NCBI GenBank assembly: GCA_903885505.1
Contig: CAISIU010000008.1
Coordinates: 1 to 32,316 of the forward strand
Reading direction: 5' to 3'
DNA from: an uncultured Actinomycetes bacterium
Lineage (GTDB): Bacteria > Actinomycetota > Acidimicrobiia > Acidimicrobiales > RAAP-2
DNA: 32,316 nt
The translations under genes and the position numbers were made by a program. Below, one piece after another: positions 3,205 through 5,627 of the stretch (position 1 is its first letter; the number at the start of each line of letters is the position of its first letter). A model generated the notes under the pieces. The model saw nothing but the letters and a program-made list of their open reading frames with translations, was not told the origin of the DNA and searched no databases.

Positions 3205-4131
3205 CTACTTCGTGTCGTGACAAAACGGCGCGACGACGTCTCGACAGATCTCCTTCCACGGGGTCGGGGCTACGCCAAAAGTGTCGCGGGTGAGCTGGTC
3301 ATCAATGATGAAGTCTCGCTCGAATTGGTAGGCGGTGTAACGAAACTCGCGCACTTGGGGGCTAAAAAGTCCCGCCACTGTCATCATGGCGCGAGGAATG
3401 GGCTTGGTCGCCACGCGCGGCACCCCTGCGACGTCGGCGAGATCATCAACGACTTCGGCGGCCGTCTTGGCCTCGTTGGTGACCACGTGCCACGCTTGAC
3501 CCCACCACCGTTCGTCCGTGGCGGCGGCGGCCAATGAGCGCCCGACGTCACCGACGTAGGTCCACGAGTGGCGAGTCGTTGCGGAACCTAAAACGTACGC
3601 GGCTTTGCCACGCAGAATTCGCGGGATGAGTTGATTGCCAAATTGTGACTGGGCACCGGCACCGATGAAGTCGGACGCCCGTAGTTCGACACAGTTCAGG
3701 CGACCCGCATCATGTGCCGAAAGGGCGTCGTGCCACATCTGGGCGCGAATCTGAGCTTTGAGGTAGTGAGCCGACAACGGCATGTCCGGGGTCATGGGCG
3801 TGGTGACCTCTCCGTAGGCGTAGAGGTTCGACAAAGTCACCAAGGTGGCGCCGGTCGCCTCGCAGGCTCCCTGGAGCGCGTGGGCAATGGGTGGCCAATC
3901 CGTGGGCCAGCGGTGGTACTTAGGGTTGGCACAGTTAATGACGGCCGCGGCCCCCTGCGCGAAGCGGGTCACCGTCTCAAGATCACTCGCGTCGCCGGCT
4001 TCTCGGGTGATTCCTGGAACATTCGCCCCCCCGCTGCGGGTCAGCATCGTGACCTCGTGGCCCCCGTCAACGAGGGCCGCCGCGGTGGCTCGGCCGGTCG
4101 CGCCGGCCCCAATGATGAGAAAACGTGACAT
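3205..4131 (-). CDS. NAD(P)-binding epimerase/reductase-like protein (extended SDR)
   Basis: This 308-residue protein begins with a Rossmann fold (MSRFLIIGAGATG, glycine motif at 8-13) and continues like the NAD-dependent epimerase/dehydratase family (LSNLYAYGEVT about 100-110, VELRASDFIGAG about 148-159). The catalytic YxxxK of extended SDRs is not evident, since AHYLKAQIRA (121-130) has Y and K only two apart. The activity may therefore differ from a classical epimerase. The start at 4131 was chosen because GGAG (4136-4139) precedes it and the protein begins at the Rossmann strand. The frame stays open upstream but runs through the intergenic operators into the tetR coding strand. A divergent TetR gene and twin palindromes suggest regulation by that repressor. 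Confidence 0.8.
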   Translation of the reverse strand: MSRFLIIGAGATGRATAAALVDGGHEVTMLTRSGGANVPGITREAGDASDLETVTRFAQGAAAVINCANPKYHRWPTDWPPIAHALQGACEATGATLVTLSNLYAYGEVTTPMTPDMPLSAHYLKAQIRAQMWHDALSAHDAGRLNCVELRASDFIGAGAQSQFGNQLIPRILRGKAAYVLGSATTRHSWTYVGDVGRSLAAAATDERWWGQAWHVVTNEAKTAAEVVDDLADVAGVPRVATKPIPRAMMTVAGLFSPQVREFRYTAYQFERDFIIDDQLTRDTFGVAPTPWKEICRDVVAPFCHDTK

Positions 4132-4146
4132 ATATCTCCAAACAGT

Positions 4147-4157
4147 GAGCAGTGCTC
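4147..4157. promoter_or_regulatory. TetR-type operator, copy 1
   Basis: GAGCAGTGCTC is a perfect palindrome about a central G. It is repeated exactly at 4189-4199. This copy lies close to the start of the epimerase-like gene (4131), where a bound repressor could block its transcription. The assignment to the adjacent TetR protein is inference from position and symmetry. Confidence 0.65.
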
Positions 4158-4188
4158 TCAGTTTGTCATATCGGCAGCGTAGAATCAA

Positions 4189-4199
4189 GAGCAGTGCTC
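4189..4199. promoter_or_regulatory. TetR-type operator, copy 2
   Basis: An identical GAGCAGTGCTC palindrome lies 42 bases from the first copy, about four helical turns, so both sites face the same side of the DNA. It spans the -35 position of the inferred leaderless tetR transcript starting at 4231, as expected for autorepression. Confidence 0.65.
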
Positions 4200-4218: not shown

Positions 4219-4224
4219 CATACT
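4219..4224 (+). promoter_or_regulatory. -10 box of a leaderless tetR transcript
   Basis: CATACT preceded by TGC forms an extended -10, and the start GTG follows after 6 bases. The same string TGCCATACTGG occurs at the same distance before the DUF1003 gene (10741). Confidence 0.55.
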
Positions 4225-4230
4225 GGACTG

Positions 4231-4911
4231 GTGTCCAGCGGTGTTCGAGCGGAAAATCGTCGTCGTCAGACGGATCTCATCGTGTCGACGGCCCAGGCGC
4301 TGGTCGCGCGTAATGGTGCCAGCGCGCTCAGTCTGCGCGAAGTCGCTCGCGAGCTGAACATGGCCTCCTCGGCGATTTATCGCTATTTCGCCACCCGGGA
4401 CGAATTGCTCACCACCCTCATTGTGAACGCCTACAACGACATGGGCGCGGCGGTGGAAAAGGCAGACGCAAAATTGTCGACGGCGGGTCACCGCGAGCGT
4501 TTCGTGGGCGTGGCACGAGCAGTCCGACGCTGGGCGCTACGTCATCCCCACGATTACGCCCTCATTTTTGGAACGCCGGTGTCGGGCTACGTCGCCCCCG
4601 CCGGCACCATCGTCGCGGCCACTCGAGTGTCAGCCGTGCTGGGGCGCATTTTGTCGCAGGCTGAGGCCGACACCACCACGGCATCCCCGTCAGCGGCAGA
4701 ACGCGCCATGGTGGATGTTGATGCGGTCACGGCGGTCACTGGTCCCTTAAGCGGTCCTCGAGTGATTGATGCCTTGAGCGCGTGGTCGGCCATCTATGGA
4801 CTGATCAGTTTTGAACTCTTTGGCCACTTCGTTGGGTCGGTTAAAAAGAACGACACTTTTTTTGATGCGGCGCTTCATAGTTGGGCCGATCGTTTCGGCC
4901 TGCCGAATTAA
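4231..4911 (+). CDS. TetR/AcrR-family transcriptional regulator with WHG-type C-terminal domain
   Basis: This 226-residue protein has an N-terminal TetR helix-turn-helix (LREVARELNMASSAIYRYFATRDELL, about residues 35-60). Its ligand-binding domain contains HPHDYALIFGTPVSGYVAP, typical of WHG-type TetR proteins of actinobacteria. The ligand is unknown. I start it at GTG 4231 because a -10-like CATACT ends 6 bases earlier and the protein then begins MSSGVRAENRRRQ. A TTG at 4207 is in frame but has no support and would include the promoter. It is divergent from the epimerase-like gene, and two identical palindromes lie between them. Its TAA shares bases with the stop of the convergent response regulator (TTAA, 4908-4911). 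Confidence 0.88.
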   Translation: MSSGVRAENRRRQTDLIVSTAQALVARNGASALSLREVARELNMASSAIYRYFATRDELLTTLIVNAYNDMGAAVEKADAKLSTAGHRERFVGVARAVRRWALRHPHDYALIFGTPVSGYVAPAGTIVAATRVSAVLGRILSQAEADTTTASPSAAERAMVDVDAVTAVTGPLSGPRVIDALSAWSAIYGLISFELFGHFVGSVKKNDTFFDAALHSWADRFGLPN

Positions 4912-5627
4912 CGGTCGAGACGAAAACCCACACCGCGAATGGTGATGAGGTGACGCGGCTCTGACGGCTCGTATTCAATCTTTTGACGAAGGCGCTTGAC
5001 GTGAGTGTCCAGGGTGCGGGTGTCGGCCAAGTCTTGACCCCACCACAGTGTGTCGAGACACTCGTCGCGCGTGACCACTTGACCGAGGCGATTAGCCAGC
5101 AACATGAGTAGATCGAATTCCTTGCGAGAGAGATCCAAGCTCTCCCCGTTTCGCACCACTGTGCGGCGAGAGGCGTCGATGACCAAGTCACCGATAGTGA
5201 TGACGTTCTCGTTCGACTCCACCTCGGTGGTGTGGCGGCGCATCACGGCGCGCACGCGCGCGATGAGTTCGCGCAGGCGGTAGGGCTTCGTGACGTAGTC
5301 GGCCGCACCAAACTCCAGGCCCAAGACCACGTCAAGCTCTTCGGTGCGGGCGGTGACCATGATGACGGGAGTGCGCCGAGTGTCGCGAATCTCGCGGCAA
5401 AAGTCCAATCCCGAGCCGTCGGGCAACATGAGGTCTAAAAGAATCAAGTCAGGGTTTGTCTCGACCAAGAGTCGTCGCGCGTCAGCCAAGTTCGGGGCAC
5501 CGACCACGACAAAACCCTCCACCGTGAGACCGATGGACAAGGCGTCGAGGTAGCTCGGCTCATCCTCGACGACGAGGATGACGGTGCGACCTTCGGGATC
5601 AACCATGTGGGAGTGCAGTGACGACAT
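4908..5627 (-). CDS. OmpR/PhoB-family response regulator (RegX3-like), orphan
   Basis: This 239-residue two-domain regulator has a receiver domain (about 16-128) with the acidic pair E21/D22, phosphoacceptor D65 in LILLDLMLP, T92 and K114. A winged-helix DNA-binding domain follows (about 140-239, ending TIRGVGFRLDR). It should act as a phosphorylation-controlled transcription factor. No histidine kinase gene adjoins it, so its partner must lie elsewhere. The ATG at 5627 lacks a clear ribosome binding site. A second ATG at 5606 (residue 8) is possible and is no better supported. Its leader holds a long inverted repeat (5645-5686), and a promoter candidate lies at 5710-5738. Confidence 0.92.
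   Translation of the reverse strand: MSSLHSHMVDPEGRTVILVVEDEPSYLDALSIGLTVEGFVVVGAPNLADARRLLVETNPDLILLDLMLPDGSGLDFCREIRDTRRTPVIMVTARTEELDVVLGLEFGAADYVTKPYRLRELIARVRAVMRRHTTEVESNENVITIGDLVIDASRRTVVRNGESLDLSRKEFDLLMLLANRLGQVVTRDECLDTLWWGQDLADTRTLDTHVKRLRQKIEYEPSEPRHLITIRGVGFRLDR

Follow-up and report, generated by a model that had tools for sequence, protein, structure and literature searches.

Twin palindromes as probable operators of a TetR-family regulator beside a divergent oxidoreductase gene

Two identical copies of a short palindrome, GAGCAGTGCTC, lie in the 99-bp intergenic region between a tetR gene and a divergently transcribed epimerase-like gene in an uncultured Actinomycetes bacterium (GCA_903885505.1, contig CAISIU010000008.1; the window referred to below is the whole stretch of 32,316 nucleotides that was analysed). 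This arrangement raises the question of which protein recognizes the two sites, and what its binding would mean for the two flanking genes. Comparison of related sequences indicates that the palindromes are most likely operators of the adjacent TetR protein.

The sequence element is an 11-bp odd palindrome with exact copies at 4147–4157 (site 1) and 4189–4199 (site 2), the starts of which are 42 bp apart, just as the sequence-only reading had described. Its placement of one copy near the epimerase-like start and of the other at the −35 position of a presumed leaderless tetR transcript also holds: site 1 precedes the ATG of the epimerase-like gene (4131, minus strand) by 15 nt, and site 2 spans −42 to −32 relative to the leaderless tetR start (GTG, 4231). 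Across the entire window, this pair is the sole palindrome with arms of at least 5 bp that is repeated within 100 bp. A single GAGCAGTGCTC is not rare, and one further exact copy is present in the genome assembly, within coding sequence; the informative feature is the pair, not the lone 11-mer. A search of the genome for further copies, proposed earlier as a way to define a regulon, yielded only this intragenic copy, and relaxed operator matches across the window genome were fewer than those of the reversed-pattern control (77 versus 105). Because the other exact copy is coding and relaxed matches show no excess over the reversed pattern, a wider regulon was rejected, and in this genome the switch appears to act locally. 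A 7-of-10 operator match (CAGCGGTGTTC, 4236–4246) just within tetR may be due to chance.

The tetR gene (4231–4911, plus strand; assigned by Pfam, orthologs and helix alignment) encodes an N-terminal helix–turn–helix domain (PF00440, TetR_N; 41 bits against a curated cut-off of 24) with the recognition helix ASSAIYRYF, and a C-terminal ligand-binding domain (PF13305, TetR_C_33; 74.4 bits, cut-off 26.8). Its neighbor (3205–4131, minus strand; PF01370/PF13460) encodes an NAD-dependent epimerase-like extended short-chain dehydrogenase/reductase (SDR) with a GxGxxG motif, and lies divergent to tetR in orthologs as well; the conserved YxxxK was not found in the sampled region. At its other end, tetR shares a 4-base overlap of stop codons (4908–4911) with a convergent response-regulator gene (4908–5627, minus strand).

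Conservation of the operator pair

Orthologs were gathered by a search with the protein only, in which the palindrome was not used and which returned relatives 43–53% identical to the window TetR. Every one of these 16 loci (window included) has GAGCNNNGCTC ahead of tetR, in most cases as a pair, so that both sites are mostly kept in orthologs and the comparison with related genomes that had been suggested from the sequence came out in favor of the palindromes. In a second protein-only sample, for which a paralog served as query and which shares a few loci with the other sets, at least one site was present in 12 of 12 TetRs of the YRY type. Among 198 genomes of the order, 12 contain the pair pattern; the reversed-pattern control gave none.

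The converse approach, a scan of 84,980 species for the pair alone, retrieved at least 120 stretches, and the 80 loci that were read are nearly all from Actinomycetota. This TetR lies within 400 bp in 62 of these, the target gene is found in nine more, and nine have neither; 62/80 and 71/80 are sample figures from the at least 120 matches, and the counts are not independent, many loci being related. Among the loci with neither gene are hairpins or repeats from Clostridia and Chlorobium. At two target-only loci (L065 and L132) the sequence ends close to the site, and at another (L066) the TetR gene is 1.4 kb from it. Seven loci (L055, L061, L079, L080, L124, L131 and L136) harbor the target and both sites, with no tetR found in a flank of at least 1 kb, and in one genome (G009) the intergenic region has been split: the SDR promoter has both sites, and tetR, with a site of its own, is 1.35 kb away. 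This split and those seven loci argue that the operator pair belongs to the target promoter and not to tetR alone.

Similar elements also occur in repeats. In Amycolatopsis pithecellobii, five copies of GAGCASTGCTC form an array with an exact 62-bp period (L122, 2667–2925); no TetR, SDR or F420 gene was detected in the vicinity. Three Streptomyces loci (L120, L128 and L099) have clustered GAGCASTGCTC-like repeats, some perfect and others degenerate, that lie apart from the TetR system.

Arrangement of the sites around the two promoters

The promoters described here were assigned from conserved hexamers. On the target strand, TTG directly follows site 2 in 71 of 71 loci (oriented by gene position), including the window (4188–4186, minus strand), where it begins the predicted −35 element TTGATT (4183–4188, minus strand). 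The best target −10 lies at a spacer of 17 or 18 bp in 62 of the 71 loci, compared with about 20 of 71 in shuffles; for the window gene, alignment places it at CAAACT (4160–4165, minus strand), with a spacer of 17 bp. The predicted transcription start near 4153 then falls within site 1, which would cover −4 to +7 of the epimerase-like transcript, with site 2 at −46 to −36 (center approximately −41). On the other strand, the predicted leaderless −10 of tetR is CATACT (4219–4224, plus strand), 6 nt before the GTG, in a NANNNT-N6-(A/G)TG pattern present in most same-genus orthologs; with the GTG taken as +1, site 2 overlaps the tetR −35 region and ends 19 bp before this −10. As far as hexamers can position them, both promoters in the window are overlapped by the two shared intergenic operators.

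Since the TTG abuts site 2 and the −10 usually follows 17–18 bp further on, the operator pair brackets the predicted promoter of the divergent target. A target promoter between the sites implies a minimum site spacing of 40 bp (11 + 29), and the spacing between sites 1 and 2 is set by this promoter. In the scan, the pattern of which admitted 38–68 bp only, the observed spacings were 40–59 bp, with 53, 56, 49 and 52 bp the most common; a few spacings of 19–35 bp come from loci that were retrieved by protein search or examined subsequently. A rule of 42 bp, or four helical turns, therefore does not survive: both a constant distance and a helical phase between the two sites were rejected as general features, phasing being weak (R 0.22–0.30 over 71 loci, kinship ignored), and same-face cooperativity of sites 1 and 2 is not supported as a general property.

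What does stand of the proposed two-way repressor is that the symmetric sites would be those of the adjacent TetR and serve both directions, as conservation, the pair scan, promoter anatomy and the covariation of helix and operator described below all suggest. The palindromes are very probably two operators for TetR_C_33-type dimers that would mediate ligand-released repression of the oxidoreductase gene and of tetR itself. Ligand-free dimers would occupy both sites, site 2 against the target −35 and over the tetR −35 region, and site 1 over the target start, thereby keeping both genes off; TetR would leave the DNA on binding a small molecule, perhaps one that the oxidoreductase acts on. We infer TetR binding, repression and ligand release, with repression drawn by analogy with divergent TetR-family members: five of five tested Streptomyces proteins of this family encoded less than 200 bp from a divergent neighbor repressed that neighbor (PMC3511530).

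The weak −10 of the window target (CAAACT) counts against this reading, and so does the location of site 2. A center near −41 is the position of class II activators, and site 2 is fixed there. The main rival is accordingly a dual regulator that would contact RNA polymerase from site 2 and activate the target, with site 1, the tetR-side sites, or both, serving repression. The register between site 2 and the TTG is invariant in 71 of 71 loci although site 1 shifts by about 20 bp, and it is kept even where site 1 lies inside the spacer, 19 bp away (L016 and L019); simple occlusion does not need so exact a register. However, the TTG matches a −35 element well and looks activator-independent, the position of site 1 at or just after the transcription start suits repression, and the first T of the TTG also forms part of the operator's symmetric flank, an overlap that may explain the register. 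We consider activation unlikely on balance, and repression from both sites remains the preferred reading.

The distance between site 2 and the tetR −10 follows a different pattern. It falls into clusters of 8–13, 19–23, 27–32 and 49–50 bp with empty gaps between them (89 loci). Permuting the site positions 5,000 times in a 58-locus subset never gave such clustering (R 0.66), and p is about 4e-5 when each 55% identity cluster contributes a single locus. Many relatives have additional, weaker operators at a distance of exactly 19 bp from site 2 in the direction of tetR, with a mean of 5.3 of 10 matches versus 2.6; the z of about 20 leaves ample room for the offsets being the best of many and for the loci being related. 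A match of at least 7/10 is present at +19 in 39 of 100 loci (background 0.4%), the 49–50 bp class has a weaker operator at +38 as well, and the last operator of this lattice lies approximately 10 bp before the tetR −10. A 10-bp periodicity in the position of site 2 relative to the tetR −10 was also considered, and is mostly explained by the 19-bp lattice (10 + 19n). The +19 operator is common but not universal among relatives and is not a defining feature of the clade: in the window there is no match of at least 6/10 at +19 from site 2, and the 19–23 bp class to which the window belongs has no clear third site, its distance not being explained by the lattice. Side-by-side binding thus appears better supported at 19 bp, between site 2 and the weaker tetR-side sites, than between sites 1 and 2. 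A lattice counted from site 2 and shared by the clade across Actinomycetota, on which side-by-side dimers would shut tetR in whole-lattice steps while site 2, at zero-bp register to the target −35, would act on polymerase by contact instead of blockage, and of which the window would be the shortest form, is a possibility that we regard as rather doubtful.

Recognition helix, half-site and target enzyme

The recognition helix contains YR[YH] in 87 of 87 members of the clade, preceded by SSA in 85. The window helix (ASSAIYRYF) fits the SSAxYR[YH] signature of the Rv1816-like clade as defined here, and its pair of GAGCNNNGCTC sites, site 2 being followed immediately by TTG, conforms to the operator arrangement of the same clade. 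By contrast, four sister TetR paralogs with a YTY helix have no GAGCNNNGCTC upstream. Their sites are mostly GAACNNNGTTC (GAAC...GTTC-type) or AACASTGTT: GAACNNNGTTC is found in two (L044/L192 and L193), AACACTGTT and AACAGTGTT in a third (L038), and neither in one. Because the YTY paralogs mostly carry GAAC...GTTC-type sites instead, the TetR appears tied to its site. The change of half-site from GAGC to GAAC together with that of the helix from YRY to YTY would look like a specificity switch, although four paralogs are few, and gives a candidate recognition-helix code (YRY with GAGC, YTY with GAAC). Two members with an SSAVYRY helix (L217 and L221) have one-mismatch sites only, which counts against the preferred model. 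Among the YTY paralogs L044, L038 and L193, two adjoin a divergent SDR of the same family. For the Actinomycetota-wide clade, which includes Rv1816 of Mycobacterium tuberculosis, the operator rule may be put as GAGCANTGCTC, with TTG abutting site 2.

These results bear directly on the idea that another factor binds the palindromes and that the TetR gene is merely a neighbor. This is very improbable: a scan with the palindrome leads to this TetR clade and a scan with the TetR leads back to the palindrome, the half-site changes along with the recognition helix, and the window genome is without another promoter-like exact copy. A chance repeat, or hairpins or terminators acting at the RNA level, as a few scan matches outside Actinomycetota appear to be (terminator-like stems at L057/L106, a simple repeat at L059), is barely credible here, since an arm-5 odd palindrome was repeated in only 10 of 200,000 mononucleotide shuffles of the 99-bp intergenic region (about 1 in 20,000) and the pair is conserved across orders while the intervening sequence changes.

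In relatives, the divergent gene encodes either an SDR of the window family or an F420H2-dependent quinone reductase-like protein (PF04075, F420H2_quin_red), the epimerase-like SDR of the window being one of these two kinds. In a TetR tree, well-supported branches show at least three switches of target type; parsimony gives 6–7. Since one operator–promoter cassette governs the NAD(P)-type SDR in some loci and the F420H2-dependent reductase in others, having switched between the two at least three times, both enzymes may answer a single chemical need. From these targets, our guess is that the ligand is quinone-like or another reducible compound. As a gene switch the system is well supported but ordinary in other respects, and its operator code can be read.

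Comparison with known systems

The closest familiar arrangement is tetR/tetA, in which a divergent repressor acts on both promoters through two palindromic operators between the genes (PMC3511530). As in the Tn10-type system, a TetR-family gene here is divergent to its target and two palindromic operators lie in the shared intergenic region. However, the two systems have different operator sequences and architectures, the target here is a PF01370 epimerase-like oxidoreductase and not a drug efflux pump, the spacing of the sites follows from the target promoter enclosed by them, and relatives of the window system add weaker operators at 19-bp spacing.

Two structurally characterized proteins are homologous to the window TetR. 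SCO4313 of Streptomyces coelicolor (PDB 2oi8) matches over most of its length (E 1.7e-27); its recognition helix differs from that of the clade (SGPALYRYF), and it is not mentioned in the open-access literature searched. Nor was the operator motif found there in a regulatory context, the matches listed being primers and unrelated sequences.

Rv1816 of M. tuberculosis (PDB 5d1r) belongs to the same family over residues 6–205 (E 3.5e-30) and shares the recognition helix of the window clade (SSAVYRY..SRDELLT). It has been linked to mmpL3/7/11 and kasA, and to palmitate (PMC6463170); no GAGCA-type operator for it is reported in the open-access literature searched. In the genomes of four close Rv1816 homologs (L209–L212), CAAGAGCAGTGATCTC is conserved directly upstream of their own leaderless tetR start, with site 1 in three of the four, and in one (L210) CAAGAGCAGTGATCTC is kept although the divergent target is gone. 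The genomes of these homologs thus provide a concrete prediction for the operator of M. tuberculosis Rv1816 (CAAGAGCAGTGATCTC/CAAGAGCAGTGATCTCG).
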